Shown here in pieces: positions 40,522 through 62,122 of a DNA stretch of 64,000 nt. This DNA is from Synergistaceae bacterium. Lineage in GTDB: Bacteria; Synergistota; Synergistia; Synergistales; Aminobacteriaceae. Both the position numbers and the translations under genes were made by a program. The stretch spans positions 1-64,000 of the forward strand of contig JAFSWZ010000025.1 of assembly GCA_017450125.1 (NCBI GenBank). The letters run 5' to 3'. The notes beneath the pieces are model-generated. The model searched no databases and was not told the origin of the DNA. It was given only the letters and a program-made list of their open reading frames with translations. Position 1 is the stretch's first letter. Each line of letters begins with the position of its first letter.

Positions 40522-41284
40522 CATTCGTGAAGCATTCACACACGGAAAAGCGTTTATCCCGTTCATCACCTGCGGAGACCCCGACACGGAAACAACGCTT
40601 GCTGTTGTGCGTGAGGCAGTGAAAAGGGGCGCGGACATCGTGGAGCTAGGTATACCATTCTCTGACCCGACGGCAGAAGGCCCGGTGATTCAGGGTGCGA
40701 ACCTCCGTGCGCTGAAGGGCGGAATAACTACGGACAAAGTTTTTGCGATGGTCAAGGAACTGCGCAAAGATGTTGATGTGCCGCTGGTGTTCATGACTTA
40801 TGCAAACGTTGTGTTCTCGTACGGCACAGATAAATTTCTTGGCCGGTGCGAGGAAGTAGGAATTAACGGGCTGATACTGCCTGATGTTCCGTTCGAGGAG
40901 AAGGAGGAGTTTGCTCCCGTCTGCCGTTCGCACAACGTCGCGCTGATCTCGATGGTTGCTCCTACGTCAGAGGACAGAATAGCCATGATTGCGCGCGAGG
41001 CTGAAGGATTCCTGTACGTTGTCTCAAGTCTTGGGGTTACGGGAACGCGCACCGAGATAACTACTGACCTCGCATCGATAGTCGGAGCAGTTAGGAGGAA
41101 CTCAGACGTTCCGTGCGCAATCGGCTTCGGCATCTCAACACCAGAACAGGCACGCAGAATGTCAGAGATTGCTGACGGCGTGATAGTCGGCTCTGCAATC
41201 ATCAAGCTCTTGGCCAAGTACGGGAAAGATGCTCCGTCCTTTGTCGGAGAATACGTGCATTCAATGAAGGAAGCCATACGGTGA
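40514..41284 (+). CDS. trpA: Tryptophan synthase alpha chain
   Basis: A 256-residue TIM barrel: [17 protein letters not shown] holds the catalytic Glu (E44, equivalent to E49), while the position of Salmonella D60 is Glu (E55), a variant I believe occurs in other bacteria. [16 protein letters not shown] and [10 protein letters not shown] complete the signature. It releases indole from indoleglycerol phosphate. It ends the operon. Confidence 0.96.
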
Positions 41285-41286
41285 AT

Positions 41287-41321
41287 TATAATAGCCTCCG
41301 TAAATCATAGTTGCGGAGGTT
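41287..41321 (+). promoter_or_regulatory. purL promoter -10 and RBS-sequestering hairpin
   Basis: TATAAT at 41287-41292 follows the trpA stop. Immediately after, AGCCTCCG (41293-41300) can pair with CGGAGGTT (41314-41321) in an 8-pair stem that buries the purL SD GGAGG. If transcription starts a few bases into the stem, part of it would be lost, so the regulatory reading is tentative. Confidence 0.45.
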
Positions 41322-41327
41322 AATAAC

Positions 41328-44300
41328 TTGGTTCACAGACTTTACACAACACGCAAAGACACACACAACCCCGAATCACAATCACTTCTTCAGGAGCTCC
41401 GGGCATCCGGCCTTGAGGACATAAGAATCTACAGCCGCTACGACGTTGAAGGCCTCACAGACGGACAGCTCAGCGAGTGCAGGTATTCAGTTTTCGCCGA
41501 ACCATTCACTGACATCCTCGCCGAAACATTGCCGGACGGTGCGGACTACGTTCTCGCGGTGGAATATCTGCCCGGACAGTACGACCAGCGCGCCGATGCC
41601 GCAGAACAATGCGCTATGCTCCTTCTGGGTTTCCGGCCGGTCATACGCACGGCGAAAGTCTACCTGTGCTGGGGAAAATCTCTCGACACTGAGGCACTGC
41701 GCAAATTCTTCATCAATCCCGTCGAAGCCAGAGAGGCACAGCTTGAGGAGTACGATTCGCTTGAGATGGAATATTCGCGGCCTGATGACGTGAAGACCGT
41801 CGAGGATTATTCGTCGCTGAAAAATTTAGCGATGAGCCAGGAAGACCTGGAGTGCATCAAGAGATACTTTGCAGCACTAGGCAGGCAGCCTACGCGGACG
41901 GAAATCAAGGTGCTCGATACATACTGGTCTGACCATTGCAGGCACACGACGTTTTCGACGCACATTGACGGCGCGAAGATTGATGATGAGCGCGTGAAGA
42001 CAGCCTTTGAGCAGTACCTCTCAATCCGTGAGGAGCTCAGCCGTTCCGGCAAGCCCATAACGTTAATGGACATTGCCACTATAGGCGCAAGATACCTCGC
42101 CCCCGCAGACCTCGTAATCTCTGAAGAGAACAACGCCTGCACGGTACGGATTGACGTTAACGGCGAGAAATGGTTATTGCTGTTCAAGAACGAGACTCAC
42201 AACCACCCGACGGAGATTGAGCCTTTCGGAGGGGCGGCAACGTGCATCGGCGGAGCGATAAGAGATCCGCTGTCGGGGCGAGCGTACGTCTATCAGGCAA
42301 TGCGTATCACTGGAGCTTCTGACCCTTCACAGCCCGCAATTCCCGGAAAACTTCCACAGCGAACAATCATCACGAAGGCGGCGGCGGGCTACAGCTCTTA
42401 CGGCAACCAGATAGGGCTTCCTACGGGGCTTGTTGATGAAATATATCATCCCGGTTACACGGCCAAGAGAATGGAGATAGGCGCGGTCATTGCGGCAGTC
42501 CCAGAAGCAAACGTCCGGCGCGAAACTCCGAAGGCCGGAGACGTTGTGCTTTTGCTCGGAGGACGGACGGGCAGGGACGGCATAGGAGGGGCAACGGGCT
42601 CGAGCGTCTCGCACACATCGAAATCTCTCGACACTTGCGGCGCAGAAGTCCAGAAAGGCAACGCTCCCGAAGAACGCAAACTGCAGAGGCTGTTCCGTAA
42701 CCCCGAATTTTCGCGGCTCATCAAGAAGTGCAACGACTTCGGAGCAGGAGGGGTTAGCGTTGCAGTCGGTGAACTTGCTGACGGGCTGGATATTGACCTT
42801 GACGCTGTGCCGCTGAAGTACGCGGGGCTTGACGGGACGGAAATTGCGGTGAGCGAGTCTCAGGAACGGATGGCAGTTGTGGTTGAGGCTGGGGATGCCG
42901 GACGCATCAAGGAGCTCGCAGGCAGTGAGGACGTACAGGCGACGGTTATTGCCCGCGTGAACGACTCAGGGAGAATGCGAATGACCTGGCGCGGAAAAGA
43001 GATCGTGAACATCTCGCGCGAGTTCATCAGCAGCAACGGAGCACCAAGAAGCACATCAGTAACCGTTCCTGCTCCATCCCCCTTAACTGCTAACCCCTTC
43101 TCCCTGTCCTCTCTTAACGTGTGCTCGCATCGCGGCCTCGCGGAACGTTTCGACTCCACCGTCGGAGCTCACACGGTCTTGATGCCTTTCGGCGGAAAGT
43201 ACCAGAAGACTCCCGCTCAGGTCATGGCGGCCAAGATTCCGCTGATGAATGGTGAGACTGACACATGCTCGCTGATGTCGTGGGGGTTCGACCCGTACAT
43301 CTCGGAGGCCTCGCCGTTCGACGGAGCGTATCTCGCCGTAACAGAATCACTGTGCAAGATCATCGCAGGGGGCGGCAATCTCTCTCAGTGCTGGCTGACG
43401 CTTCAGGAGTATTTCGGCAAGCCGGAGAATGACCCGCAGAGGTGGGGGCTTCCGTTCGCGGCACTGCTCGGAGCACTGAAGGCACAGTTGGACTTCGGAG
43501 TTGCGGCGGTCGGCGGAAAAGACTCAATGAGCGGTTCATTCATGACGAACGAGGGCAAGAACCTCGATGTTCCTCCGACACTGGTATCTTTCGCGGTGTC
43601 GGTGTGTAAGGAGCACAGCATACTATCTCCCGAGTTCAAGCAGTCAGGCTCGCGCGTTGTGCTGCTTTCGCCGGAATACGACAGCAGAGGCCTTCCCTTA
43701 CCTGCTTCACTCATGAAGATATTTGCGACAGTTGAGAGGCTGAACGCTGAAGGGAAGGTGCTTGCGTGTGCCACGCCCACAGCAGGCGGGGTCAAGGCTC
43801 AGGTGTTCAGGATGTGCATCGGCAACGGTCTGGGCTTCGAGTTCACGGGTGATGTCCCTGACGACGAACGCAGGGGAAGATTCATCCTCGAGCTCTCTGA
43901 CGCTGAAGGACTCCCTGAACTTGGCCGGGTTGTGGCTGAGGGCGGGAGCTTCAACCTCTCGGAGTGTGAAAAAATCTACGATGCTCCGTTCTCGGGAATC
44001 TTCCCGGTTGAAGCTGAAGTTCACGCGAATATTCCTGCCGTTGAGGTTAAGCCCGCCGGTGAACGCGCAACGTATCAGCTTCCTCCTGTGCCGTCGCCGG
44101 TGTTCCTCGTGCCCGTGTTCAACGGGACTAACTGCGAGTACGAGACAGCCCGCGCAATCGAACGGTGCGGAGGACGTGCAGAAATTTTCGTGGTGAAGTC
44201 CCTCACTCCCGAGCTGATGAAGGAATCAGCATCACGTTTCGCTACAGCCCTGAACAACGCACAAGCCTTAGTTCTGCCCGGCGGTTTCTCGAGCGGCGAC

Positions 44301-44897
44301 GAACCCGACGGAAGCGGCAAGTTCATCGCGATATTCCTTCGCAGCCCGGTTGTGCGCGAGAGCCTTGAAGCCCTCCTCAACGACAGGGGCGGGTTGGTCT
44401 GCGGAATCTGCAACGGATTTCAGGCACTCGTCAAGACCGGCCTCCTGCCTTACGGACGAATCTGCGAACCCGAAGAACTCCCCTCAACCCTCACCTTCAA
44501 CGCAATCGGACGGCATCAGTCCCGCATAATACGTTCACGCGTTGTCTCGAACAGTTCCGTGTGGATGAGCAGGTACAGCGTCGGCGAGGTGTACTCAATG
44601 CCCATCTCTCACGGCGAGGGACGCTTTGTGTGCAGTGAGGAGCTTTTCACGGAACTCATGAGGAACGGGCAGATTGCCGGGCAGTACGTTGACCTTGAGG
44701 GCAGGCCGTCAATGAGGACGTGCGACAACCCGTCGGGGTCGAGTTACGCTGTTGAGTGCCTGACTTCGCCGGACGGGCGTATACTCGGGAGGATGGGGCA
44801 CGCAGAACGTGTCGGCTCTGGGCTGTACAAGAATGTTCCGGGCAAGTATGACCTGAGATTCTTCGAGGGAGCGTGCAGATACTTCATGAAGCAGTAA
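41328..44897 (+). CDS. purL: Phosphoribosylformylglycinamidine synthase, large single-chain form
   Basis: A 1189-residue single-chain PurL: an N-terminal PurS-like region, SDHCRHTTF and NETHNHPTEIEPFGGAATC (about 200-310), two PurM-like halves, and a C-terminal class I glutaminase with the nucleophile in VCGICNGFQALVKTG and the His/Glu of PISHGEGRF. It makes FGAM from FGAR, ATP and glutamine. The start is TTG at 41328 with GCGGAGG 8 bases before it. The stop is 15 bases before the first NTPase gene, whose SD begins at the purL stop. Confidence 0.96.
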   Translation: MVHRLYTTRKDTHNPESQSLLQELRASGLEDIRIYSRYDVEGLTDGQLSECRYSVFAEPFTDILAETLPDGADYVLAVEYLPGQYDQRADAAEQCAMLLLGFRPVIRTAKVYLCWGKSLDTEALRKFFINPVEAREAQLEEYDSLEMEYSRPDDVKTVEDYSSLKNLAMSQEDLECIKRYFAALGRQPTRTEIKVLDTYWSDHCRHTTFSTHIDGAKIDDERVKTAFEQYLSIREELSRSGKPITLMDIATIGARYLAPADLVISEENNACTVRIDVNGEKWLLLFKNETHNHPTEIEPFGGAATCIGGAIRDPLSGRAYVYQAMRITGASDPSQPAIPGKLPQRTIITKAAAGYSSYGNQIGLPTGLVDEIYHPGYTAKRMEIGAVIAAVPEANVRRETPKAGDVVLLLGGRTGRDGIGGATGSSVSHTSKSLDTCGAEVQKGNAPEERKLQRLFRNPEFSRLIKKCNDFGAGGVSVAVGELADGLDIDLDAVPLKYAGLDGTEIAVSESQERMAVVVEAGDAGRIKELAGSEDVQATVIARVNDSGRMRMTWRGKEIVNISREFISSNGAPRSTSVTVPAPSPLTANPFSLSSLNVCSHRGLAERFDSTVGAHTVLMPFGGKYQKTPAQVMAAKIPLMNGETDTCSLMSWGFDPYISEASPFDGAYLAVTESLCKIIAGGGNLSQCWLTLQEYFGKPENDPQRWGLPFAALLGALKAQLDFGVAAVGGKDSMSGSFMTNEGKNLDVPPTLVSFAVSVCKEHSILSPEFKQSGSRVVLLSPEYDSRGLPLPASLMKIFATVERLNAEGKVLACATPTAGGVKAQVFRMCIGNGLGFEFTGDVPDDERRGRFILELSDAEGLPELGRVVAEGGSFNLSECEKIYDAPFSGIFPVEAEVHANIPAVEVKPAGERATYQLPPVPSPVFLVPVFNGTNCEYETARAIERCGGRAEIFVVKSLTPELMKESASRFATALNNAQALVLPGGFSSGDEPDGSGKFIAIFLRSPVVRESLEALLNDRGGLVCGICNGFQALVKTGLLPYGRICEPEELPSTLTFNAIGRHQSRIIRSRVVSNSSVWMSRYSVGEVYSMPISHGEGRFVCSEELFTELMRNGQIAGQYVDLEGRPSMRTCDNPSGSSYAVECLTSPDGRILGRMGHAERVGSGLYKNVPGKYDLRFFEGACRYFMKQ

Positions 44898-44912
44898 AGG
44901 AGGTGTTGTTGT

Positions 44913-47900
44913 ATGGAACGACAAGTTATCGAGATGTATGCAGGAAGAAGCGTAGTAGTCTACCTCAAACCTGATTACGAGAAGATACAGGGAGTTCTTG
45001 AGCTCGGCAAGGGCGACTCAATCATAGTTGGCGGCGAGGCAGTAATCTTCGAGATGGTAGCAAGAGTAAAGCTCGTTGATGGTGATGCCGCGCCTTCTGT
45101 CCCAGAAGAGACTTCGGCTGTGTTTCTCGGCGAACTGGAAGAATGTTTCGGCAGGATGAAGGCTCTTCCTGAAGAAGAAGTATTCTCAGACGCTTACTTC
45201 AAAAAAGCCCGGCCCAAGACATTCGGTGCGCAGTCCGAGACGGATAAGCTCATGAACAAGTACAAGTCCGCCGTGAGAAACCACGAAGACGCTCCTAACT
45301 CAAAGCGCATGGCAGAGATAATCCGTGATGCACAGCTTTTGTGGGAGGAAGACAGGGCAGATGCTTTCGCCGGAAAGTTCTGGGCGTTCATGCTGTACCT
45401 TGCAGGCAAGAAGGAAGAGAGCGCGGATGTCTGCATGGAGGTGATGGATTTCGGCACGGCAATGGCTGTCTATCCTTCCCTGAAAGTCGCGGAAAATGCG
45501 GTGCGTGAGGCCGCCTATCAGTCGATGACACCGCGAATCTTTGCGTTTGTTGCCGGGCTTGACGCTAAACATCTAGTGCCGGTGTTGCAGAGCCTCTTCG
45601 AGAGTGTGATAGCGAACGCTCACGCAGAGATAGACGCGGACTACCGCAGGGAGTGTTTCACTCACATTGCGGCAATTTCGTGGAAAGTGCTGAATTTTTC
45701 CGGCTGGCAGGACAAGAAGGAGCTGTTGTCCGAAAGAAATATCACCTCCCTTAAAACCTGGCTCGATGCTCTGCCGGAAGCTGTCCGCAAAACAGAGCCA
45801 ACCCCCGCAGAACCGCATGTCAGCGCACATTCCGGCGCAGAGGAGAAACTTGACGCAAAGGAAGAGGCCGTCGGCCAAGACACAGTGTTTGAGGGCGAAA
45901 TAGTCTGGTTTAACCGGGACAGTATTTACGGGCACATTCACAGCCCTGCGGCAGGCAGGTGCATCGAGTTTTCCGAGACACTGAACAGGGACGACATCTT
46001 CTTTCACCTCTACCAGACGAGCGACACTGAGCTTCGCAGAATCCTCCTTCTGAACACTCAGGAAGTCGCAGGCCTCAAGGTAACGTTCCGTCTCGGCATA
46101 AAGGATGACGGCAGAATCTCCGCCTATGACGTGAAGGCCTCATGCCCGCTCCCTGAAGCTAAGCCTGTTCCCGACGGCATGGAGGAGGACGGAAAGATAG
46201 AGTCTTTCGACAAAGTGAAGATGGCCGGCAGGATAATTTCTTCGTCGGACGGCAGCAAGTACGGCTTCGAGGTTTCTGGTGTCGCTGATCCTCTCCTGTA
46301 TGTTTTTCTGGTCTATGACCCAAAAGTGGGCGGGCATCCCGTGAAGTTTGTCAGGACATTCGTCAAGAACGGGCAGGTTCAGGCTGAGGACATCGTTTCT
46401 GCCGCCGCTGGTTTCCCCGACGAGAAGCTGAGCAATTGGGAGCGCGCCGGTGTCTTGGATAAAGCACGCAAGCTCGTGGAAGATTCACCTCACGATGCCG
46501 CCGACAGGTCAGCAAAGGAAGGCATGAGGATAGACAGAGTCGTACACGTCAGACACATAGCACTTGACCCCTACGACCCTGAAACCGCAAAGAAATCCCC
46601 GCCCGCCGCAGGACCTGTGTTTGTTCCGCCGCCGCCGCCGCCTGAGGATTACTACCTTGCCGCGAAGGAAGCAGCTGACCGCAAGAATTTCGATGAAGCC
46701 GAACAGCTCTACATCAAGGCAGTCAGCAGGGGAGACAGCCGGGAACTTGCCGCCGGAGAACTGCTCGGGCTCTACAGGGAACGAAGTTTGTTCGGCAAGG
46801 CACGGGACTTCCTCGAGAGGTACGGCGATATTTTTCCCGACGAACGGAGGCGCAGTTTCTGGATTCAGTACTACGAAGCGAGCGGCGAAGGCTACGGGGA
46901 ACTTCTGCGGCTATATGACGAATCTGCTGCTGCTTACGGTGATGACAAGCTGGACACAAAACTTGCCTTCATCATCAAGAAAGCCCGCCTGCAATACAGG
47001 AACAGCGATTTTCAGGCGGCACTTGCTGCATGCGACGAAGGCTTGAGCCTCACACCGAACAGCGGCTACCAGAATCTGCAGGCCAGCTTGAAGAAGATCA
47101 AGGCACTCTCGCTCCGTGCACTTGGCCGGAACGAAGAAGCTGCTTCCCTTGCCCGCGAACTCCGGCGGATACCGACCTTCAGGGCTGACACCGACCTCAT
47201 GGCCATTCTTGGTACGCAGAAGCCGGACGAGGAAGCCGCCGTCAATAGTTTCACGCTCCTTCCAGCGTTCCTTCAGGACAAGATACGCTACATCTCGATT
47301 GACGAGAAACTTCACACAGAGTTTGTTACTGAGGCGGGCTACAAGAAAGGGCACTACGATTCGCGCGGAAACTTGATCGATGTCAGGACGGAGTACCGTT
47401 CGCTTGTCGCAGGGAGCAAACCTGACGACGCAAACCCAGCCAAAGCCGAGAGATGTTTTGCCATTGCGCGGTATGTGTACAAGTTTCTTGCCTGCGCAGA
47501 TTCTAGAGAGACGAGCAGTTATCCCGAACTCAGCGAGGAGATTATTACCGCCAACGCCTACAAGGGTCTTGAGCACATGCTCTATCATCAGCTCGAACAG
47601 AAACATTACGACAGTGCACGGTATTACTGTCTTCTTATGCTCAAGCGTCCCGGCAGCGAGAAAGCTGAAGACTGGATGCGGATATTCATATGCTCGTACT
47701 TCGACAGCGGGCTCGTCTGGGATCGCAAAAGGGACAAGTGGACAGCTGAGGATCTGCGCGCGCTCTCGAGAAGCAGCCTTAAGGACAGCGTTGACTTCGA
47801 TGAATTTTTCGGAGGGCTGCTTTCCGTAGCGGCTTCAGGGGGAAGCTCCATCACTGACCAGGTGCTGAGCATCCTGCTGTACCACCCTTACCCTGAATAT

Positions 47901-49964
47901 TCCGGCGAACTCTTGAGGAAGCTGGGTCTCGACGCTAACTCTACTTACGAGGAAGTCCTTGAACGTTTCACCAGCGAACTTGCTCTCTTCAAGGACAGGC
48001 AGCAGAACTTCGCCAAAGCTATTGCCTCAGCTGGTACGGGCGACATAATGCAGTCCTCATCCATCAGCAAGACGGAAAGCTGTATCGACGGGCACAGGTA
48101 CATTTACGGCAAGGACAAGGCCTACGCTTCCGCCCTGCGGAACATACTTGCCCAGCTCAAGAGGTATGTTGAGCTCGATGATTTCGACAGCCGTATCTAC
48201 GTGCTGGATCAGGTCATAAATGCGGCGGGAAGCAGCATAAGCCAGATAGTACAGCAGCCCACGAGATGCAGCTACGAGTGCTTCTTGCCCGTCCTGAATA
48301 ACATTCTGCGCCGTGCAGTCTCCGAGAAGTCGCAGCAGTACGCAATTCCGCCGGAGCTGTCGTGCCTTGTCGCCGAGTGCATAAGGCAGGATCGTAGAGT
48401 TACGGCAGTCATTGAGGTCAAGAACAGCCTTGCCCGACAGAAGGCAATGAATGTCCGCGCGGAAGTTACCGGCCTTCCTGTTGGGGTAGTGTGCCGCAAA
48501 ACTGACATCGATTCCGTTATTTCCGGCGGGGCAAGATCCGAGTGTATACTGAGCATCGAGCTCCCCGAGAACTACGAGGACACGAGCATAGAGTTTCAGC
48601 TCAGGATTTTGTACCAGTACTACAGCATGATGCCTTCATCGGAGGACGGTCTCCCCGTGCAGGCGGCTCAGGGCGAATACAGGCCTTCCCTGCCGCCTTT
48701 GACGCTGAATTACAGGGAGAACTTCACGGAGATACCCAACCCGTTCTCGCATTACAGCAACGGGCACGGGGTTGATGACCCTGACATGGTGTTCGGGCGT
48801 GATGATGACATTGCCGGCATAATGAACAGGCTGTGCTCCGACGGCAAGCTGACGCGCGGCAGGTCAATAGCTCTTTACGGGCAGAAGCGCAGCGGCAAAA
48901 CTACGCTGCTTTATCAGATACGCAGGCGCATAGAGGAGGAGTTTGCTGGCCGTACGCTCTCTGTGGATCTGGGCAGTGTCGGGTCATACGGCTGGGAAGG
49001 CGGCTTCAACAGGGGCATGATGCACCAGATAGTGCGCGGGATACAGGACGATCTCGACTACGACGATGAGCTGTACGATGCTGCCTGCAGGCGCGGAATA
49101 ACTTTCCCTGACAACATCCTGTACGACGAGAATTACTCTGATGTCTTCAACGCCTTCATGAAGGAGTTTACCAGCTTCTTGGAGGAAGAGAGGCCGGGCT
49201 GCAGTATCGTGATATTCCTTGACGAGTTCACGTACTATTACAGCTACATCAAGGAAGGCAAGGTAGATGCCGCTTCGCTGGATTTCTGGAAGGCAATGTG
49301 CGAAGTGTACAAAGTGATACTCGTGATAGTCGGCCAAGACAGCATGACACAGCTAAAGCAGATGAGCCCTTGCGCCAATGCTCTTGCGGCGACAGAACTC
49401 TACCCTGTGCGCTACCTCAAGCCGGAACATTCGGAGCGTCTGATCCGCAAGCCGCTCGAGAAGGTACATGCTGGCGTAAAGATTGACGACGAAGCAGTCG
49501 AGAGACTTTTCCGGCTGACGTACGGAAGCGCGTACCTGCTCATGATACTGTGTTCCTGCATGGTAGATTACCTCAACGCGAACCTACTCTCCTCAGTGAG
49601 CCCCCAGATTGTCGACAAGGTAGCTGACGAGGCTTTCAGGACGGGCAGAATATCGCGCCAGCACTTCCAGCCCATGTACAATGACTCGCTGGGCGGGAAC
49701 GACCTTGACCACCTCGAAGCCCACGACAGGGAGAACTTGAGGCTTCTTGCGGCTGTTGCGTCGTCGGCGGGAGGGGATCATGAGGCATCGGTGTCGGACT
49801 TCTCCGGCCTGCTGGAGGACTGGGACGCGAAGAAGACCGACGAGATGCTGCAGGCTCTCGTGGACAGGGAGGTTCTGTGCTTCAAGGACGGCAGATACCG
49901 CATTTACGTTGGACTTTTGGAGGAATGGCTGAAGCATTATTATCAGGGAGGCGTATCGCTTTGA
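44913..49964 (+). CDS. Large RNA-binding-like, TPR and STAND/AAA NTPase protein
   Basis: The 1683-residue protein has, in order: a small Sm-like barrel candidate (about 5-55, GRSVVVYLKPDYEKIQGVLE); a helical region; a cold-shock-like domain (about 325-405: GEIVWFNRDSIYGHI, DDIFFHLYQ, AGLKVTFRLG) and a second degenerate one (about 420-490); a poly-Pro linker (571-576); TPR-like helices (about 578-760); a long helical region; a beta-sandwich (about 1165-1240); the NPFSHYSNG and FGRDDDI entry of STAND/archaeal-type ATPases with Walker A GQKRSGKT (1323-1330) and Walker B IVIFLDEF (1432-1439); and a C-terminal winged-helix-like end. It has a strong SD right at the purL stop. Domain names are by eye; the NTPase is sure, the others probable. 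Confidence 0.8.
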   Translation: MERQVIEMYAGRSVVVYLKPDYEKIQGVLELGKGDSIIVGGEAVIFEMVARVKLVDGDAAPSVPEETSAVFLGELEECFGRMKALPEEEVFSDAYFKKARPKTFGAQSETDKLMNKYKSAVRNHEDAPNSKRMAEIIRDAQLLWEEDRADAFAGKFWAFMLYLAGKKEESADVCMEVMDFGTAMAVYPSLKVAENAVREAAYQSMTPRIFAFVAGLDAKHLVPVLQSLFESVIANAHAEIDADYRRECFTHIAAISWKVLNFSGWQDKKELLSERNITSLKTWLDALPEAVRKTEPTPAEPHVSAHSGAEEKLDAKEEAVGQDTVFEGEIVWFNRDSIYGHIHSPAAGRCIEFSETLNRDDIFFHLYQTSDTELRRILLLNTQEVAGLKVTFRLGIKDDGRISAYDVKASCPLPEAKPVPDGMEEDGKIESFDKVKMAGRIISSSDGSKYGFEVSGVADPLLYVFLVYDPKVGGHPVKFVRTFVKNGQVQAEDIVSAAAGFPDEKLSNWERAGVLDKARKLVEDSPHDAADRSAKEGMRIDRVVHVRHIALDPYDPETAKKSPPAAGPVFVPPPPPPEDYYLAAKEAADRKNFDEAEQLYIKAVSRGDSRELAAGELLGLYRERSLFGKARDFLERYGDIFPDERRRSFWIQYYEASGEGYGELLRLYDESAAAYGDDKLDTKLAFIIKKARLQYRNSDFQAALAACDEGLSLTPNSGYQNLQASLKKIKALSLRALGRNEEAASLARELRRIPTFRADTDLMAILGTQKPDEEAAVNSFTLLPAFLQDKIRYISIDEKLHTEFVTEAGYKKGHYDSRGNLIDVRTEYRSLVAGSKPDDANPAKAERCFAIARYVYKFLACADSRETSSYPELSEEIITANAYKGLEHMLYHQLEQKHYDSARYYCLLMLKRPGSEKAEDWMRIFICSYFDSGLVWDRKRDKWTAEDLRALSRSSLKDSVDFDEFFGGLLSVAASGGSSITDQVLSILLYHPYPEYSGELLRKLGLDANSTYEEVLERFTSELALFKDRQQNFAKAIASAGTGDIMQSSSISKTESCIDGHRYIYGKDKAYASALRNILAQLKRYVELDDFDSRIYVLDQVINAAGSSISQIVQQPTRCSYECFLPVLNNILRRAVSEKSQQYAIPPELSCLVAECIRQDRRVTAVIEVKNSLARQKAMNVRAEVTGLPVGVVCRKTDIDSVISGGARSECILSIELPENYEDTSIEFQLRILYQYYSMMPSSEDGLPVQAAQGEYRPSLPPLTLNYRENFTEIPNPFSHYSNGHGVDDPDMVFGRDDDIAGIMNRLCSDGKLTRGRSIALYGQKRSGKTTLLYQIRRRIEEEFAGRTLSVDLGSVGSYGWEGGFNRGMMHQIVRGIQDDLDYDDELYDAACRRGITFPDNILYDENYSDVFNAFMKEFTSFLEEERPGCSIVIFLDEFTYYYSYIKEGKVDAASLDFWKAMCEVYKVILVIVGQDSMTQLKQMSPCANALAATELYPVRYLKPEHSERLIRKPLEKVHAGVKIDDEAVERLFRLTYGSAYLLMILCSCMVDYLNANLLSSVSPQIVDKVADEAFRTGRISRQHFQPMYNDSLGGNDLDHLEAHDRENLRLLAAVASSAGGDHEASVSDFSGLLEDWDAKKTDEMLQALVDREVLCFKDGRYRIYVGLLEEWLKHYYQGGVSL

Positions 49965-51448
49965 GCAGAGTTTTCGCAACTGGGACGCTGGCTTCCGGCT
50001 CGCAGATAATAGGACGCACGGAGCTTATCGACAGGATCGCAAAGTATCTGTACGACGACGGAAAGAATGTATCGCTTGTTGGTTTGCCGGGCTCGGGAAA
50101 AACATCATCGGCCTGCGAGGCACTGAACAGAATCGCGAAGAGGAAGGACTTTGACGGCAGGCACACACTGCTTCTCAAGACCAGCCTTGGGCTTTATGAG
50201 TCGTTCGAGGAGTACTGGAAGGGATGCGTGCTCGAGCTTTATGACATGGCTTCTGAAAGCGGCATCATCCACCATATTCTCGACAGGGAGCGTGATATCT
50301 TTGCGTCGGCATCTTCACTGCCCTACGGCGAGGTCAAGGCACACACTGAAACGTTCCTGAAGTGCCTGAAGAAGCTCGGCGTGAGGACAATAATATTTGT
50401 TGACGAGTTTGACGCGGCCGTAAAGCTCTTCGGCGGTGCCAGGCATTACTACGAGTTCTTCAGGGAGGCCGGTAGCGGAGAAAGGTTCAGCATACGCTTC
50501 CTGATAACCTCGCGCCTGCAGATCAAACGTATAGAGACGAACGCTTACGGCAATTCCACGCTCTGGGCAATCTTCGATGAAATAGGAGTGCACGAGTTCT
50601 CTGACGCAGAAATGGAGGATTACTATACTCTCCTTGAGGAATACGTCGTGCCTCTGACTGTCGAGGCGAGACAGAGAATCTACCAGACAGCGGGGCGTTT
50701 TCCTGCGCTCCTGAGCCTCATAGGCGACAGAATCGTGGACATGAGAGAACAAGGAACTGTGCCGGATGTCGAGAAAGTGATTGAGCAGGAGAGGGACGGG
50801 ATACTGAGAATCTTCAGCAGAGTGTTCAAGTGCCTGTGCGATGACAAAAGCGCGGCTCTGGTGATTCAGGCGGCGGTCGGACCTCGCTACAAGATAACTC
50901 CTGCGGAGATACAGACGCTGTCGGAGTATATGGGGTATATTTTCCACGAAGCAAAAGGCTTCTGGACGATAATTTCTCCCGAGTTCCTGAATTACCTCAG
51001 GTGTCAGAAGCTGAATGTCCCGATATGGCCTCAGCTCTCCGAAGCACAGGCTGCCCTAGTGAGGCTTGTCCGCGAGAAGCTGACTGAACATTTCGGCGTG
51101 GACAGGCACAACCTCGACGATGTCCTGATAGCGAAGAAACTTATTCCCGCCACAAAAATAGATCAGTACATCAGCGACCGGGACAACAACAGGAAGAAGT
51201 ACGGCGTGGAGTCTGACCTTCTGGATGTGCTGCCGATCGAGGGGCTTGCGAATATTATCAGCCAGTACTGGCCGGGAATTTTCTCGGAGTACTTCAAGGG
51301 CAAAGATTACGAGGGATACTGGAGACCCCGCTTCCTTGAGCTTGCCCGCGCGCGTAATCCTGTAGCCCACGCTCACCCGGACTACCTGACGGACGAGGAC
51401 ATCGCGAGGGTCAACGCGATATGCATTGAGATCATGGAGTGCCTGTAA
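49961..51448 (+). CDS. NTPase with C-terminal HEPN-like domain
   Basis: The 495-residue protein starts at TTG 49961, overlapping the stop of the previous gene (TTGA) with GGGAGG 9 bases before. It has an N-terminal GRTELIDRIAKYL entry, Walker A GLPGSGKT (41-48), Walker B TIIFVDEFD (143-151) and a sensor-like FLITSRLQIKR, i.e. an archaeal-ATPase/STAND-type module. The last ~130 residues are helical and end with RNPVAHAHPDYL, an R465-x4-H470 motif typical of HEPN ribonucleases or of catalytically dead HEPN adaptors (Swt1-type). Immediate overlap indicates the two NTPases work together. No other defence gene is adjacent, and the pair ends the transcript. Confidence 0.82.
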   Translation: MSRVFATGTLASGSQIIGRTELIDRIAKYLYDDGKNVSLVGLPGSGKTSSACEALNRIAKRKDFDGRHTLLLKTSLGLYESFEEYWKGCVLELYDMASESGIIHHILDRERDIFASASSLPYGEVKAHTETFLKCLKKLGVRTIIFVDEFDAAVKLFGGARHYYEFFREAGSGERFSIRFLITSRLQIKRIETNAYGNSTLWAIFDEIGVHEFSDAEMEDYYTLLEEYVVPLTVEARQRIYQTAGRFPALLSLIGDRIVDMREQGTVPDVEKVIEQERDGILRIFSRVFKCLCDDKSAALVIQAAVGPRYKITPAEIQTLSEYMGYIFHEAKGFWTIISPEFLNYLRCQKLNVPIWPQLSEAQAALVRLVREKLTEHFGVDRHNLDDVLIAKKLIPATKIDQYISDRDNNRKKYGVESDLLDVLPIEGLANIISQYWPGIFSEYFKGKDYEGYWRPRFLELARARNPVAHAHPDYLTDEDIARVNAICIEIMECL

Positions 51449-51456
51449 GCAGGACA

Positions 51457-51484
51457 GCTCCCGGCTTTTCAGGAGACCGGGAGC
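51457..51484. terminator. Hairpin between convergent NTPase and permease genes
   Basis: GCTCCCGG pairs with CCGGGAGC (8 GC-rich pairs, 12-base loop). The permease stop codon lies in the loop. There is no T-tract on either side, so termination is uncertain. Confidence 0.4.
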
Positions 51485-52386
51485 ATAATCTCTACGGCGA
51501 GGCCGTTCAGCAGCGAGTACGCAATCACGAACGCCAGATACCCTGCAAACTTCCAGCCAGCAAGAACGATCTTCAGCGCGCCTAAGTTCGTTATCTTCGT
51601 TGCCGGGCCGGTAATCATGAACGCAGACGCGCTTGCCATGCTCATGCCGTCAGCCAGCCACTGAATCAGCAGGGGTATTGTCCCGCCTCCGCAAGCGTAC
51701 AGGGGCACGCCGATTGTCGCCGCCATCAAGACCCCGAAGCCGTTTCTCCGTCCGAACAGACGGGCAAAGCTCTCTGCCGGAACATAACGCATGAACAGCG
51801 CAGTCAGCACTATTCCGAGCAGGAAATAGCCTCCAGTAGCACGGACATTCCGCCCGAAGTTCTTGATGTAGCGGATGAAGATGTTGGGGTCTGTGTCGCG
51901 GTTATGCGTCTCCCAGAAGCCGGAGAACGTGAAGAAGTCTCTGTGCGTGATTCTGTTGTAGAGGTGAACGGCAAGACCGGCCGCTATTCCGCAGACGAAG
52001 CACGACGCAACGCGCACAATCAACGCAGTCCGGCCAAGTGCAGTGCTGTAGATGATGAGCTGGGGATTGAGGAGGACTGATGCCATCATGAACGACGCTA
52101 ACCAGTCCTCACGCATTCCCTTTTCCCTGAAAGATGCGGCTATCGGAATCGTTCCGTACATGCACAGCGGCGACGCAATCCCCAGCACGCACGCCGGAAC
52201 AATCCCGAACAGGCTCAGCTTCTTCCCGTTCATCGACGCGAAGAGTGAGTGAATCTTCTCCTTGCCGAAGACTGAGATGAACGAGCCTATAGCCATTCCC
52301 GCCAGCCAGTAAGCGTAAATCTGCTCAAGCTGAACGGTGAAGTAGTACCAGAGATAAATAAACTCTCTGCGAAGAATGCTAGTCAA
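51469..52386 (-). CDS. ArsP/DUF318-family permease
   Basis: A 305-residue membrane protein with about eight helices. The paired motifs ASPLCMYGTIPIAASFREKG and GVPLYACGGGTIPLLIQWL (each with a Cys in C-[MG]-x-G), the ASFMMASVLLNPQLI segment and the ITGPATKITNLGALKI segment match ArsP_1 (DUF318/YraQ-like) permeases. Relatives export trivalent organoarsenicals; other substrates are possible. It overlaps the end of the secreted DUF362 gene by 8 bases, suggesting a functional pair. Confidence 0.82.
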   Translation of the reverse strand: MTSILRREFIYLWYYFTVQLEQIYAYWLAGMAIGSFISVFGKEKIHSLFASMNGKKLSLFGIVPACVLGIASPLCMYGTIPIAASFREKGMREDWLASFMMASVLLNPQLIIYSTALGRTALIVRVASCFVCGIAAGLAVHLYNRITHRDFFTFSGFWETHNRDTDPNIFIRYIKNFGRNVRATGGYFLLGIVLTALFMRYVPAESFARLFGRRNGFGVLMAATIGVPLYACGGGTIPLLIQWLADGMSMASASAFMITGPATKITNLGALKIVLAGWKFAGYLAFVIAYSLLNGLAVEIMLPVS

Positions 52387-53305
52387 CGCTCACAAAGTCA
52401 TACTCTCTGCTTCCGAGCCCGATTTCTGCGGCGTGCTCGACTGTGTGAATGCCATGACGTGATTCCATGCGCTTGATGAGGGATGAGCCGTCGGGGGCTT
52501 TGTACACCAAATCTACACATGCCTGATCAAGAGCGACCGGGTCAAGCGAGCCGAGTATTCCGATGTCGTGCATGTCTGGGGCTGAGGGGTTTCCGTCGCA
52601 GTCGCAGTCAACGGACAGGTGATTCATGACGCTGATGTACATGATGCGCTTTCCGCCGCCGAGAGAGTCGGACACTGCCTTTGCCGCTTCGGCCATTGAC
52701 TCGAGGAAGTCATCCTGCTTGTCGTACCATATAGAGCCGCTGTCCTTAGTGCCCGCCGTGTGAATGATGACTTTGCCGCGCGGTGAAGCAATACCGATGG
52801 AGATGTTCTTCAGCGCGCCGCCGAAGCCGCCCATTGCGTGCCCCTTGAAGTGCGTCAGAACCAGCACAAAGTCATAGTTCTTGAAGTGCGAGCCTACAAC
52901 GTCTTCTTTCAGGTGCTTTCCGCCTGTTACCGGCAGGGACACTTCACCTTCTTCGTCCATGATGTCGACGTTTGCGATCGCGTTGAAGCCGTGATCCTCG
53001 ATGACCTGGCGGTGAAGGGCTGTAGCTGACCTTGAGCCACCGTAGGCGGTGTTGCACTCGACGATTGTGCCGTTGACGCGCTTGACGAGCTCGCCGATGA
53101 GTGCCGGTGAGAGGTAGTGAGTATTTCCGGCCTCTCCGGTGCTGAGCTTGACGGCGACTTTGCCTTCGGGTGTGCGGCCTAGATGCTCGTAGATCGCCAT
53201 CAGTCCGGCGGGCGAGATGTCCTTAGTGAAGTACACTGCAGGAGCGGCGAAGGATGAGCCCGCCAGTGCGAGCACCAGCAAGAACGCTAACGAAAATTTC
53301 TTCAT
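52379..53305 (-). CDS. Secreted DUF362 protein
   Basis: The 308-residue protein starts at ATG 53305 with GGAAGGAG 8 bases before; a longer frame to 53350 lacks an SD. It has a signal peptide (MKKFSLAFLLVLALAGSSFA) and a DUF362 core (VAVKLSTGEAGNTHYLSP, VLTHFKGHAMGGFGGALKN, LDPVALDQACVDLVY). Some relatives are iron-sulfur or metal-binding proteins, but this one shows only two clustered Cys (CDCDG), so it may bind a metal or substrate outside the cytoplasm and feed the downstream permease. It shares the family with the cytoplasmic protein at 22559. Confidence 0.8.
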   Translation of the reverse strand: MKKFSLAFLLVLALAGSSFAAPAVYFTKDISPAGLMAIYEHLGRTPEGKVAVKLSTGEAGNTHYLSPALIGELVKRVNGTIVECNTAYGGSRSATALHRQVIEDHGFNAIANVDIMDEEGEVSLPVTGGKHLKEDVVGSHFKNYDFVLVLTHFKGHAMGGFGGALKNISIGIASPRGKVIIHTAGTKDSGSIWYDKQDDFLESMAEAAKAVSDSLGGGKRIMYISVMNHLSVDCDCDGNPSAPDMHDIGILGSLDPVALDQACVDLVYKAPDGSSLIKRMESRHGIHTVEHAAEIGLGSREYDFVSVD

Positions 53306-53406
53306 GAGAATTTCTCCTTCCGTGAAATGGATGGCCGGAAAATAACTCATGAACTGTGCTTTAGCTCAATAGGTAAATCGCACTGAATCTTCCTTGTCGG
53401 CTTTGG

Positions 53407-54252
53407 CTACCGCACCTCAATAACTCCCCTGCCGCCGGAAATGTAAAGCGTGCTCCCCACAACCATATTGCCCATGTCGCTCGCCATAAGCAGCGCGTAT
53501 TCAGCCACCTCTTCCGGCATCACAAGTCTCTTCGCCGGGTTGTCCCAAGAATAGATGCTCTCACCTTCCTGCCAGTTCTGCATGTCTGTCGCACAAGGCC
53601 CGGGAGCTATCGCGTTGACGATTATTCCATGAGGGAGGAGAACTTTCGCTAGCCCGGAGGTTATTGCCCGTACCCCCCACTTCGACAGCCTGTACGGAGA
53701 GAAGGCGGGTTCGAGCTCCGCCTGCGATGATATGTTCAGGATGTGCCCGCGTATGCCGTTCTCTATCATATACTTCGCGGCGGCCTGGCACATGAAATAT
53801 ACTCCCTTAAGGTTGATGTTCATGGTGCTGTCGTAGCCTTCTTCCGTGAGTTCAAGAAAGTCATTCAGCGAGGGGTTGTACACTCCAGCAGAGTTGACGA
53901 GAATGTCGATCCTGTTCCCTTCGGCTAGGCTCACTGCTTCAGCGAACTTGGCCTGCATCGACTTTACATCCAGCATGTTAATCACAATCGACTTACAAGA
54001 GCCCCCCCCCCCATTACGTAATTTACGCAGGCACTTCGACAGCTTCTCCTCGTTCGTACCGGCAATAATCACGCCTGCGCCGCTGTTCATGAACGCTTCA
54101 GCTATCGCCATCCCGATTCCTCCGCTCCCGCCCGTAATGAGAGCCGTCCTGCCCTCGAGCAGAGAACTCCTGCTAACGGGTTTCACTATCGGTATCAGCT
54201 TCTCCTCCTTAAAGAGAGTGATTGCCCTCTTAATCATTCTTGTTATGCTCAT
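53407..54252 (-). CDS. Short-chain dehydrogenase/reductase with an internal 11-G tract
   Basis: A 281-residue SDR: the cofactor motif TGGSGGIG (about 41-48), NSAGVYN (NNAG-like), catalytic Ser in ISSQAELE and YRLSK (Tyr-x-x-x-Lys). The substrate is unknown; the N-terminal ~30-residue extension is unusual. Between the cofactor motif and the Asp of NMLDV the coding strand has eleven consecutive G (codons G-G-G-G), a slippage-prone tract in a poorly conserved turn; a one-base change would truncate the protein. The start overlaps the sbcC stop, so it is the last gene of sbcD-sbcC-SDR. Confidence 0.85.
   Translation of the reverse strand: MSITRMIKRAITLFKEEKLIPIVKPVSRSSLLEGRTALITGGSGGIGMAIAEAFMNSGAGVIIAGTNEEKLSKCLRKLRNGGGGSCKSIVINMLDVKSMQAKFAEAVSLAEGNRIDILVNSAGVYNPSLNDFLELTEEGYDSTMNINLKGVYFMCQAAAKYMIENGIRGHILNISSQAELEPAFSPYRLSKWGVRAITSGLAKVLLPHGIIVNAIAPGPCATDMQNWQEGESIYSWDNPAKRLVMPEEVAEYALLMASDMGNMVVGSTLYISGGRGVIEVR
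54002..54012. repeat. Homopolymer of 11 C (11 G in the coding strand)
   Basis: Eleven consecutive C on the plus strand, inside the SDR gene, flanked by AT-rich sequence. Tracts of this length are typical contingency loci for phase variation and are also prone to sequencing error. Confidence 0.95.
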
Positions 54253-56660
54253 CTTGATACACCCGGCCCTTCCAGAATACTTACTCCTTCGTTCTTCGGG
54301 ATAACGTTTATCTGTGCGGCTATCCTCTCCCGCAATGCCGCAACGTGCGAGATTATCCCTATCATCCGTCCTTCGCGCCGAACCTCAGCCAGCGCGTCAA
54401 GTGCTGTGTTCAGTGTGTCTTCGTCCAGAGAACCGAACCCCTCGTCCAAGAACAGCGAATCCACCCGTGCCTTGCTCCCGGAAATCTGCGACAGTCCCAG
54501 CGCAAGCGCGAGGCTCACGATGAAGCGTTCACCGCCGGAAAGATTCTCTGTCGGGCGAATCTCACCTGCCTGCTCGCGGTCTATCACGCTAAGTTCAAGT
54601 TTATCGTTGTCAGGCGTTGGCCTCAGTGAATAGCGGCCGTTCATCCTGCGCAGGTATTCATTGGCGTTGTTGATGACGAGGTCAAGAGTTATCTTCTGTG
54701 CATAGATGCGGAACTTGTCTCCGTTGGCAGAGCCTATGTGCCCGCTCAATGCCGCCCAGCGTTCCGAACGGACCTTCTGCGCCTCGCACTCGCGTGAAAG
54801 CTCCTCAGCTCTGGCCTTCTGTCTTCTCAGAGTGTCCAGCTTCTGCGACAGTGCCGAAATCTCCCCGCTGAGAGTGATGATTTCCTCCTCCTGCTTCCTG
54901 AACAACGCCTCCGTCTCGTCAATCGTGCCCGTCAACGGCAGAGAGGCTTTGAGGCTCTCAAGTTCCGCCGTGATTCTCGCTGCCTCTGCGTTCTTGCCGT
55001 CGAGGCTGGCTTTCGTTGAGGCTGTCAGTGCCTGAAGAGTGCTTATGCTGCTGCGTGAGGCTTGAAGCTGATCCTCGAGCCTGAGAACACTGGCTGCCCA
55101 CTCTTGCGCCCGTCCGATAATCTCTCTTGTGCTGGACGCGCCCCTTATCCCTAGCGGACGGATTGCTTCGCAGACGGCTTCCCGTGAATCAGAAACTGTC
55201 TTCGTCTTGGCCGCAAGGTCTTCGCTGCATGATGTCAGGGCTTGTGCTGCCGCCTGCTCTATGCCGTACGCTGTTGTCCAGCTGTTCTTTGCTGCTTCAA
55301 GAACGTCTGCTGCTGTCCTGCGTTCTGCTTCCAGCCTCTTGTAGTCCTCTTCGAGCTTCTGCGTCTGCCTGAAGAGTGCCTCAGCTTCTGCGCGGGCTTC
55401 TGTTCCGTGAATGAGGCCGGGATGTACCACAGACCCGCACACGGGGCAAGGTTCGCCGTCCTTCAGCAAGGCCTGCGTCTCCGCGAGAACGGCCGCTCTG
55501 GTTCGTGCCCTCATGCCTTCTATTGCGTCATAGGCTTCTTTGAGGCGGCGTTCTGCCTCGTCAAAGATTGCCCGTGCCCTCTTGCCCTCTGCTACTTTAT
55601 GCGCTGTTGCTGCTCGCGCCTTCTGTAAGGCATCATCGGCACGCTTCACTGTTTCTTCGCTGATGAGCTTGTCGCGTTCTGCCTGCTCGTACCTGCTCAC
55701 TGCATCACGAATCCCTGCGAGCACAACATCAGCACTGTCGGTGATACCTCCCTTTAGGCGCGACAGTTCCTCCTCAACAGCAGGCACAGAGTCCATCAGG
55801 CGCGAGAGTGTCTCTTCATTCTGCGAAACGCTGTCCTGAAGCCTTCCGCACTCAGCGCGGCATCTCTCAAGGTCTGTAGTCATGCGTCCTATCTCCCGCA
55901 GAAGGTCTCTCTCTGACTCTGTCTTCCTGTGCTCAGCTTTTATGCGTTCAAGCAATGCTGATTTCGCCTCAAGCTCCGGGACAAGAATTTCCTCCGGCTT
56001 CTCCCCGAAAGTTGACCTCACTGCCTCAAGCTCGGTGTTCTTGTCCCTGAGTGCCTGAGCTTCGTCCTTGCTGCGGTCATAGACCAGACGAGATATTGTG
56101 CTGTAGATTTCCGTGCCGGTTATCAGCTCGAGAACTTTTGCGCGTCCGTTCTTGTCCGACGTAAGGAACACGTCAAAGTTCCCCTGTTCGAGCATCATCG
56201 CCCTCGTGAACCTCATGAAGTCCATTCCCGTAATCTCCGCAACTTTCTTGACTGTGTCATCATGACCCGACGTGATGGGGATTCCTTCCGCCTTGCCGGG
56301 TTCGTAGTGCTCGAGCGTATGTTCGGGAGTCTGGAGATTGCCGCTGCTCTTGAAGCCGCTTCTGTGCTGTCCCCACTTGCACGTAAAGACTCCTTCGGCC
56401 GCACTGAACGTTACATGAGCAAAACAGTCGCCTGTCCCTCTGGACATTATTTCGTTGGTGCTTGCGCTGATGCTGCCCAGTCTGGGAGTTTTGCCGTACA
56501 ACGCGAGGCATACCGCATCAAAGATAGTTGTCTTGCCCGCGCCGGTCCGGCCGGTAACAGCAAACAGTCCGTTCATGCAGTAAGCCTTATCCCGCAGGTC
56601 TATGCGCCATTCCCCGCGCAGAGAGTTGAGGTTCTTAAGGGCTATGGATAGTATCTTCAC
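54249..56660 (-). CDS. sbcC: Exonuclease subunit SbcC
   Basis: An 803-residue SMC/Rad50-like ATPase: Walker A TGRTGAGKTTIFDAV (about 36), long coiled coils flanking a zinc-hook CPVCG (about 408), the LSGGERFIVSLALAL signature and Walker B VDSLFLDEGFGSLDE near the C-terminus. With SbcD it cleaves hairpins and processes DNA ends. It is shorter than E. coli SbcC (1048), mainly in the coiled coils. It overlaps sbcD by 4 bases. Confidence 0.95.
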   Translation of the reverse strand: MKILSIALKNLNSLRGEWRIDLRDKAYCMNGLFAVTGRTGAGKTTIFDAVCLALYGKTPRLGSISASTNEIMSRGTGDCFAHVTFSAAEGVFTCKWGQHRSGFKSSGNLQTPEHTLEHYEPGKAEGIPITSGHDDTVKKVAEITGMDFMRFTRAMMLEQGNFDVFLTSDKNGRAKVLELITGTEIYSTISRLVYDRSKDEAQALRDKNTELEAVRSTFGEKPEEILVPELEAKSALLERIKAEHRKTESERDLLREIGRMTTDLERCRAECGRLQDSVSQNEETLSRLMDSVPAVEEELSRLKGGITDSADVVLAGIRDAVSRYEQAERDKLISEETVKRADDALQKARAATAHKVAEGKRARAIFDEAERRLKEAYDAIEGMRARTRAAVLAETQALLKDGEPCPVCGSVVHPGLIHGTEARAEAEALFRQTQKLEEDYKRLEAERRTAADVLEAAKNSWTTAYGIEQAAAQALTSCSEDLAAKTKTVSDSREAVCEAIRPLGIRGASSTREIIGRAQEWAASVLRLEDQLQASRSSISTLQALTASTKASLDGKNAEAARITAELESLKASLPLTGTIDETEALFRKQEEEIITLSGEISALSQKLDTLRRQKARAEELSRECEAQKVRSERWAALSGHIGSANGDKFRIYAQKITLDLVINNANEYLRRMNGRYSLRPTPDNDKLELSVIDREQAGEIRPTENLSGGERFIVSLALALGLSQISGSKARVDSLFLDEGFGSLDEDTLNTALDALAEVRREGRMIGIISHVAALRERIAAQINVIPKNEGVSILEGPGVSR

Positions 56661-60100: not shown

Positions 60101-61522
60101 ATGAGGAAACTTTTTGCGGCTGTACTGATAGCTGTATTTGCCTGCTCTCCTGTGTATGCTGCTGTACGCTCGGAGAGGAGCACATACTTCATTGACGACG
60201 CGCAGGGCCAGGCAGTCATCAAGGACGGCAAGAAACAGGCTGCCCGCGATGAAGCCAGAAAAATGGCGATGCGTGATGCCATCGACAAAGCGATGGATAT
60301 GTTCGCCGGAGAAACTAGCTCTGAGATGAAGAACAAGGTCTTTGCCAGAGCACAGAGTCTCGTCAAGAACTTCAAGATAACCAGCGAGAACGTTGAAGGC
60401 GACACGCTCTACATCACGGCATCATGTTCTGTGGGGGAAAAGGCCTTTGACGGAGTGCTCGGCCCTGAAGTCATCTCCATGCTCGGAAACCCGCGCGTCA
60501 TGGTTATAGTTGACGGGAGCAATGCATCTCTGCTCGAGGAGGAGTTGCTGCGGCTGTTCGAGAAGGCGGGCTACCTTATCGTCGACAAGGATCAGGCGCA
60601 GGCACTCATTGCCCTTGACCCGAAGCAGGCTTTCAGCGACCCCGAAATGGTTGCGGCTGCGGCCAAGACCATCAAGGCAGACATAATCATAGTGGCACGG
60701 GCTTCGTCGAGCGCGGCGCACGCCCAGAGGTTCGGCATACACATGTACAAGCCCAGCGGAAGCGTGCAGGTCAAAGCCGTCCTCACCAAGACAGCCTACC
60801 AGATAAGCTCCACGACAATATCTCGCGGAACTAAGGACTGGCAGGGGAGTTCTTCTGCGGCAGGGATCCTGAGGTCGGGTATCCGTCAGGCGGCAGAGGA
60901 GATAATCTACAAAATAGCCTACAGGATGGCTTCTGCTGGTTCTGCGCTTGGCGGAATTACCGTGAACATCAACCTCGCCAACGCGTCCTTCAAGGACATC
61001 GAGCAGTTCACCGCCTACCTGAAGGAGACAGGACAGGTCTTCGAGAGGTCGTACAGCAAGGAACTGGCAGAACTTGACCTTGTTTCCCCGAAGAATGCCC
61101 GCAACGTCGCATCACTCATCTCCGACTACCAGCTTCCCGGCGGAACAGTTGAGGTTGACGGTCTCACTGCACAGACCGTGAGCGCAAGGGTCAAGCCTCT
61201 AGGGCCGGTAGCCGTACAGCCTGACGTTCCTTCTGTCGTGATCAATGTCTTTGTCGACAACATCAAGAGCGACAAGGAAGTCGAACGTGTCCGCAACGAG
61301 CTGGCAAAACTTGCAGGCACTCTCGGAACAATCACCCTATCCTACAACAATCCTGCTCTGACAATCACGATAACCTACAACGGCAATCCGTCTGATACGC
61401 AGGATGTCAGAGCTGTGGAGAAATCTCTCAAGGAAATGAACATCAGGATAGACAGCACATCGGACAACTCTATACGGGGCTGGAAAGAGCCTGAAGGCAT
61501 CCTCAACCGTGTATGGTGGTAA
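60101..61522 (+). CDS. Exported FlgT/LPP20-like protein, function unknown
   Basis: The 473-residue protein has a signal peptide (cleaved near residue 20) followed by a helix with the [RK]-x-A-x-x-E-A-R-x-x-A-M-x-D-A-I-x-x-A pattern (ARDEARKMAMRDAIDKAMDM) and a beta-strand unit, resembling the N-terminal domain of FlgT and LPP20-type proteins. A TolB/CsgG-like alpha/beta region (MVIVDGSNASLLEEELL... GYLIVDKDQAQALI) and a tandem repeat of an ACT/POTRA-like fold in the C-terminal third (NVFVDNIKSDKEVERVRNEL; ITYNGNPSDTQDVRAVEKSL) follow. It is the first gene of a cluster leading to EssC; family function is not established. Confidence 0.65.
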   Translation: MRKLFAAVLIAVFACSPVYAAVRSERSTYFIDDAQGQAVIKDGKKQAARDEARKMAMRDAIDKAMDMFAGETSSEMKNKVFARAQSLVKNFKITSENVEGDTLYITASCSVGEKAFDGVLGPEVISMLGNPRVMVIVDGSNASLLEEELLRLFEKAGYLIVDKDQAQALIALDPKQAFSDPEMVAAAAKTIKADIIIVARASSSAAHAQRFGIHMYKPSGSVQVKAVLTKTAYQISSTTISRGTKDWQGSSSAAGILRSGIRQAAEEIIYKIAYRMASAGSALGGITVNINLANASFKDIEQFTAYLKETGQVFERSYSKELAELDLVSPKNARNVASLISDYQLPGGTVEVDGLTAQTVSARVKPLGPVAVQPDVPSVVINVFVDNIKSDKEVERVRNELAKLAGTLGTITLSYNNPALTITITYNGNPSDTQDVRAVEKSLKEMNIRIDSTSDNSIRGWKEPEGILNRVWW

Positions 61523-61543: not shown

Positions 61544-62122
61544 ATGAACAGAAAAGTTGTTGCTCTGGTACTGCTCTTCACCCTCATCTTCACGTGCGGA
61601 GCTGAAGCGGCAAAGAAGAAACGCAAGGCTTCATCACCCGCTCCGGCAGTCTCGCAGGTTCCTGACTCAGTTCTGCCCAAGCGCGGAGACATTGCGGTAG
61701 TTGTAGAGGGCGATGATGACCAGCACGTCAGGATAACGGAGACGAAGATCATCGACTCCCTCATCAATCACGGCTACAGGGTAGTCGACGAGAAGAAGAT
61801 GCGTGCGGCTAGGGCTGCTGCGGTGAAAGCTCAGGCCTACAGGCTCGCGATGCAGGGCAACTACAACGCAATCTTCAAGCTCAACGCAAGCTACAGCGTG
61901 GCGGCAACGGTACTTGCGCGCGTCCAGGCCGGGCAGGCAGTGCAGAACCAGTTCGGGCTGTACACTGGTACTGCGTCGGTGTCGCTGATTGCCGTAACCT
62001 CGCGGGGCACTAAGCTCGGAGGCCGGACATCATCAGCAAAGCAGGTAGGCTACACTGAGTACGAAACATTGATGAACTGCATAGAAGCCGCCGTTGAAGA
62101 CGGAATGCAGCAGATGTATTAA
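61544..62122 (+). CDS. Small exported protein of the same cluster, function unknown
   Basis: The 192-residue protein has a signal peptide, then a basic low-complexity stretch (AAKKKRKASSPAPAVSQ), and a TolB/CsgG-like alpha/beta domain (DIAVVVEGDDDQHVRITETK, IIDSLINHGYRVVDEKKMRA). The pattern of a helix ending in GYRVVD followed by an amphipathic helix resembles the neighbouring proteins, so the three may form one periplasmic or outer-membrane assembly. SD AAGGAGG lies 7 bases before the start. Confidence 0.6.
   Translation: MNRKVVALVLLFTLIFTCGAEAAKKKRKASSPAPAVSQVPDSVLPKRGDIAVVVEGDDDQHVRITETKIIDSLINHGYRVVDEKKMRAARAAAVKAQAYRLAMQGNYNAIFKLNASYSVAATVLARVQAGQAVQNQFGLYTGTASVSLIAVTSRGTKLGGRTSSAKQVGYTEYETLMNCIEAAVEDGMQQMY

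Follow-up and report, generated by a model that had tools for sequence, protein, structure and literature searches.

HEPN ribonucleases are metal-independent enzymes that generally work as dimers, the R-x4-H site being a composite one, and STAND NTPases assemble when they bind their ligand. Both kinds of domain meet in proteins listed by Anantharaman et al. (2013), in which Swt1-like HEPN domains are fused to STAND-ATPase, TPR and S1 domains (e.g. Npun_F6454, MED222_16016 and Desac_1927) and which are predicted to be defence or stress RNases; the same survey puts the Abi2 and Swt1 HEPN domains in one group (PMC3710099). Combinations of a cold-shock domain (CSD), HEPN and a GTPase occur in the CoCoNuTs (PMC11090510). 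The locus analysed here joins two NTPase modules and a HEPN domain to Hfq-like and cold-shock domains, in two overlapping genes.

The window, by which we mean the whole stretch of 64,000 nucleotides that was analysed, comes from a member of a Synergistaceae genus from herbivore guts and contains the following features, all on the + strand:

44913..49964, +, gene A, a 1683 aa RNA-binding, TPR and NTPase protein (ORF, upstream SD and domain matches)
44913..46607, +, A residues 1-565, the part with homology to the single-gene relatives' N-terminus, with an Hfq/Sm-like barrel, TPR-like helices and two cold-shock/OB domains (alignment and model of relative L061)
46608..47231, +, A residues 566-773, a TPR-like insert not in the single-gene relatives (alignment and weak TPR matches)
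47232..47942, +, A residues 774-1010, a conserved helical middle domain common to the single-gene relatives (alignment)
47943..48752, +, A residues 1011-1280, the stretch ahead of the NTPase (genome search)
48753..49961, +, A residues 1281-1683, a STAND/AAA_16-type NTPase with C-terminal extension (domain matches and Walker motifs)
49945..49951, +, AGGGAGG, the SD-like sequence for gene B, within the 3' end of gene A (sequence inspection)
49961..51448, +, gene B, a 495 aa NTPase-HEPN protein whose TTG start overlaps the stop of A
49961..51028, +, B residues 1-356, an AAA_16-type NTPase (domain matches, structure comparison and Walker motifs)
51029..51445, +, B residues 357-495, a Swt1/Abi2-like HEPN domain with R465-x4-H470 (alignment, model, structure comparison and Pfam)

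Gene A starts 15 nt past purL, behind the SD aaaggagg, and ends in TGA at 49962-49964, sharing TTGA with gene B, whose TTG at 49961 stands nine bases beyond AGGGAGG. Both this SD and the overlapping TTG lie within gene A, which makes coupled translation of the two genes likely. As B occupies the -1 frame relative to A, with an overlap at 49784-49964, we also weighed a -1 frameshift that would join the two products, and rejected it, given that there is no slippery heptamer and that the SD and TTG favour reinitiation. An assembly artefact was likewise rejected, the GC content of all segments (52-58%) matching that of the flanks and the flanks being syntenic with relatives.

The first-pass annotation had read the locus as two overlapping NTPase genes with intact Walker motifs, the second ending in a HEPN-like domain with R-x4-H and the first carrying Sm-like, cold-shock-like and TPR regions, and our analyses bear out each of these points. 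The ORFs are present at its coordinates, and the Walker A and Walker B motifs are GQKRSGKT (1323-1330) and VIFLDE (1433-1438) in gene A, and GLPGSGKT (41-48) and IIFVDE (144-149) in gene B. In Pfam, A matches AAA_16 (2e-7), ATPase_2 (3e-6) and nSTAND1 (2e-5), significantly and near or just under the curated cut-offs, and B matches AAA_16 (7e-6), significantly and just under the cut-off. Both can thus be classed as predicted P-loop NTPases of the STAND/AAA_16 type, STAND or AAA+ in subclass. Searched against 188 Synergistota genomes, the NTPase modules of A (1011-1683) and B (1-356) gave generic P-loop matches and none specific, and for the stretch A 1011-1280 other genomes of the phylum likewise contained nothing specific.

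In the structural model of B the NTPase half is of low confidence, whereas residues 355-495 form a confidently modelled helical domain, with pLDDT mostly 80-96. Foldseek alone returned nothing for this model at E < 0.001, probably owing to the poor modelling of the NTPase half, and comparing sequences with the PDB likewise yielded no significant match to HEPN; VIA-align then placed the eight best aligned solved structures at the HEPN region, and all eight are HEPN RNases. The best of them are AbiF (8vz6, Z 8.2 over 139 residues) and Csm6' (8pe3, Z 7.6), followed by further Csm6 proteins (Z 4.4-6.0), such that ranks after AbiF down to 8 are Csm6 only; these Z values are moderate, and values of this size could, taken alone, arise by chance among helical domains. 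R465 and H470 are invariant in 28 of 28 aligned HEPN domains, down to 25% identity, which argues that the motif is no chance match. When HEPN domains were scanned alone, 15 of 19 matched PF18731 HEPN_Swt1 (best 1.1e-4), the matches seen falling below the gathering score, and the window's own domain scores better with HEPN_RiboL-PSP (6.6e-4) than with PF18731, its HEPN Pfam matches too lying below the curated cut-offs. Considering the uniform structural matches, the invariant R and H and the Swt1-like HEPN matches together, we judge the HEPN assignment secure. A search of the phylum with PF18731 gave ten matches above cut-off, all in other proteins, and many weak ones at about E 0.005 in proteins of about 600 aa, which are likely due to chance.

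The character of the N-terminal part of A was established through its single-gene relatives. Relative L061, modelled using 23 sequences (mean pLDDT 71), has a Sm-like barrel matching Hfq at residues 1-59 (Z about 8), TPR-like helices at 130-249 (Z 8.5, within the range that a common helical arrangement can give) and two cold-shock domains at 348-434 and 451-526 (Z about 9) that match CspA, CspB and UNR, followed by a helical middle and a helical C-terminus. Pfam CSD matches are present in 13 of the 23 relatives, and in the insert of A itself each TPR match taken singly is weak (E about 0.002).

The HEPN region of B is matched in 29 of 43 genomes of the genus, there as the C-terminus of a longer protein that matches gene A in its other parts, and found no match in the other relatives searched. 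In 26 genomes, or species, of the genus (one protein being ended by a contig end and one frameshifted), a single chain of about 1000-1090 aa corresponds to A(1-565), A(774-1010) and B(357-495), in the order Hfq/Sm-like barrel, TPR-like helices, two cold-shock domains, helical domain and HEPN. The frameshifted case, in G041 (L076:5000-5080), is interrupted inside HEPN, leaving 936 aa and a separate 80-aa frame, through sequencing error or decay. The window form differs from these chains, through gain on its own side or loss on theirs, in having A 566-773 as a TPR-like insert and, where the helical domain is followed by HEPN in the relatives, two NTPase modules with the ORF break between them. 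Genes A and B are therefore related to one polypeptide by fusion or fission, which is strong evidence that the two products act together. The first-pass annotation would have taken failure of the two genes to co-occur in other genomes as refuting its reading; taken literally, that co-occurrence is lacking, as the two-gene NTPase form was found in one genome only, but the fusion of the shared parts in 26 relatives answers the question of functional linkage better. The single-gene relatives are without NTPases, which implies that an NTPase gate is dispensable for the family's role there. By median identity, the window form reaches 31% to the relatives in the N part, 44% in the middle and 42% in HEPN, whereas the relatives reach 57, 65 and 65%, respectively, among themselves. 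The window form is thus no slight modification of the relatives' gene: it is an allele that has diverged deeply or evolves fast, or else a replacement that took the same position. The G027 protein is without the middle part, and G018 has two divergent forms. Separately, about eleven genomes of the genus encode free-standing Hfq-like proteins with tandem cold-shock domains and without HEPN (310-496 aa), at sites that vary and are unlinked (examples are L089:5287-6774, L090:5129-6322, L091:4818-5747, L092:6752-7687, L093:2432-3409, L095:4516-5763, L096:6052-7305 and L099:3319-4320); the window's own genome has none.

Set against the Swt1-like fusions (PMC3710099), by that paper's description, the window form shares a Swt1-family HEPN with R-x4-H, a STAND-type NTPase, TPRs and an OB-type RNA-binding domain, but is split into two genes and has two NTPases, an Hfq/Sm-like barrel and tandem cold-shock domains; moreover, most relatives of the window lack any NTPase. 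The earlier view that the domain order is undescribed consequently holds in part: HEPN of this family with STAND-ATPase, TPR and S1 had been reported, whereas the two-gene, two-NTPase form is new to this report and was found once. CoCoNuTs (PMC11090510) resemble the locus in combining an NTPase, CSD/OB RNA-binding parts and HEPN in overlapping genes with RNA as the predicted target, but A has an Hfq-like domain instead of the McrB-type GTPase or McrC, and neither was found in A or B by Pfam, NCBIfam or PADLOC. AbiF/Abi2 (PbAbiF, 8vz6) is the closest structural match of the B HEPN; AbiF, however, uses its own ncRNA, while the intergenic gaps at this locus are 15-20 nt and Rfam gave no match in 41000-54500, an RNA from elsewhere being possible. 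The Csm6 ribonucleases share the HEPN fold and offer a composite dimer RNase as a model of action, but family searches detected no CARF ring-nucleotide sensor domain in A or B. The PADLOC candidate PDC-M34B gave a weak profile match to B (5.7e-5) at the HEPN end only, and PADLOC gave no match for gene A. Our literature search found no paper on PDC-M34 or PDC-M34B, and none joining an Hfq-like domain, a cold-shock domain and HEPN.

In all 26 genomes of the genus that include the upstream flank, the gene comes immediately after purL, on the same strand and mostly at a distance of 11-25 nt, and in many genomes, the window included, it is followed by an ArsP-type permease gene in convergent orientation and by a DUF362 gene. 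The single-gene relatives (L061-L087) nearly always start with TTG behind a good or strong SD, this rare start codon being conserved across the genus. The gene is present in 19 of 30 good genomes, i.e. absent from about a third. The slot is empty in G039 and G023, where purL adjoins the permease; it holds other inserts in G032, G017 and G037, and three LicD-like genes (L130:8240-11009) in G026, the closest relative of the window by purL, which is without the HEPN gene. In G033 a 215-aa protein with Hfq-like barrel and TPRs only (L098:4529-5173) sits between purL and the permease. Beside the permease, G018 has a slot allele (L088:2-3909) whose products are an IetA-like AAA ATPase (PADLOC 2e-28), a protein of 476 aa in which one region is C19orf12-like (glycine-zipper), and a CSD-HEPN protein of 447 aa; since contamination of G018 amounts to 5%, the allele may come from another strain. 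The protein tree of the relatives broadly agrees with the purL tree in its main clades, which points to mostly vertical inheritance; the window protein is the exception, with an end branch of 2.45 versus 0.16 in purL. Searches of plasmids, phages and viral contigs with A, B or the relatives' family yielded nothing informative, and no relative was found there or in another genus. The locus is surrounded by housekeeping genes (purL, sbcCD and others) and lies in no defence island. Elsewhere in the window, the ORFs 60101-61522 (473 aa) and 61544-62122 (192 aa) have no Pfam match at E 1e-4.

Considering the domain content together with the HEPN fold, the invariant R and H, the coupled start and the fusion in relatives, we infer, with somewhat better than balanced confidence, that A and B form one regulated, NTPase-gated HEPN ribonuclease machine. 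B would carry the HEPN endoribonuclease, expected to be a dimer, behind its own NTPase, and A would provide an RNA-binding and TPR platform (Hfq-like barrel and two cold-shock domains) with a second NTPase. A may sense an RNA or protein signal; NTP binding would then drive assembly of A with B, pairing two HEPN domains such that RNA is cut, and through this cleavage the infected or stressed cell might stop growing or die. Whether such a machine serves defence or another stress role is, in our estimate, about even. Defence is plausible in view of the HEPN effector, the NTPase switch, the empty or replaced slot, the divergent alleles and the G018 allele combining the IetA-like AAA protein with CSD-HEPN; the purL linkage, the mostly vertical descent, the housekeeping neighbours and the absence from mobile elements count against it. 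The original interpretation of a defence or stress system thus survives as regards HEPN fold, two NTPases, RNA-binding and TPR parts and functional linkage, while its defence component is weakened by the purL linkage, the mostly vertical inheritance and the lack of a defence island.

The same constancy behind purL, with its short gaps and good SDs, would also suit a lineage-specific factor of RNA turnover or translation control, co-transcribed with purL and answering nucleotide or translation stress, whose HEPN domain trims host RNA with no phage role and whose window form merely gained NTPase control. The agreement with the purL clades, the confinement to chromosomes of one genus and the RNA-chaperone nature of Hfq and CSD domains all speak for such a factor, which we hold to be a real, if minority, possibility; it sits poorly, however, with a gene missing from about a third of good genomes, with empty or replaced slots, with the deeply divergent alleles in G000, G018 and G027, and with the NTPase modules of the window form. 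HEPN toxins are frequent in toxin-antitoxin systems, and the short Hfq-CSD-CSD paralogues in about eleven genomes could be seen as partners, so that a toxin-antitoxin-like pair or family may be envisaged in which a HEPN toxin is restrained by the RNA-binding protein or by these paralogues. We consider this unlikely, given that the putative toxin and the RNA-binding parts are one chain in the relatives, that the paralogues are unlinked and missing from the window's genome, and that the proteins are far larger than usual toxin-antitoxin components. We argue still more firmly against HEPN being a non-catalytic RNA-binding or dimerization domain, as proposed for eukaryotic Swt1: inactive HEPN domains are known within the Swt1 family (PMC3710099), but the R and H are invariant in all 28 sequences, divergent ones included, and this reading appears very improbable.

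Finally, going beyond the gated ribonuclease that we favour, we suggest tentatively, and as a rather doubtful extension, that gut Synergistaceae of this genus may possess an immune locus which is resident and chromosomally fixed behind purL, which recognises RNA by means of its Hfq-like and cold-shock platform, and in which the sensor modules lying between the RNA-binding N-terminus and the HEPN effector are swapped; the window would then show a single-protein RNase turned into a two-subunit, NTPase-gated one. At one chromosomal position in one genus, a single-protein Hfq-CSD-HEPN form can be compared with one made of two genes and equipped with two further domains, the NTPases, which makes the locus a testable case of an RNase effector gaining NTPase control. 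Further, the joining of an Hfq-like barrel and tandem cold-shock domains to a HEPN RNase suggests direct RNA sensing, which has been little studied outside CRISPR and AbiF.
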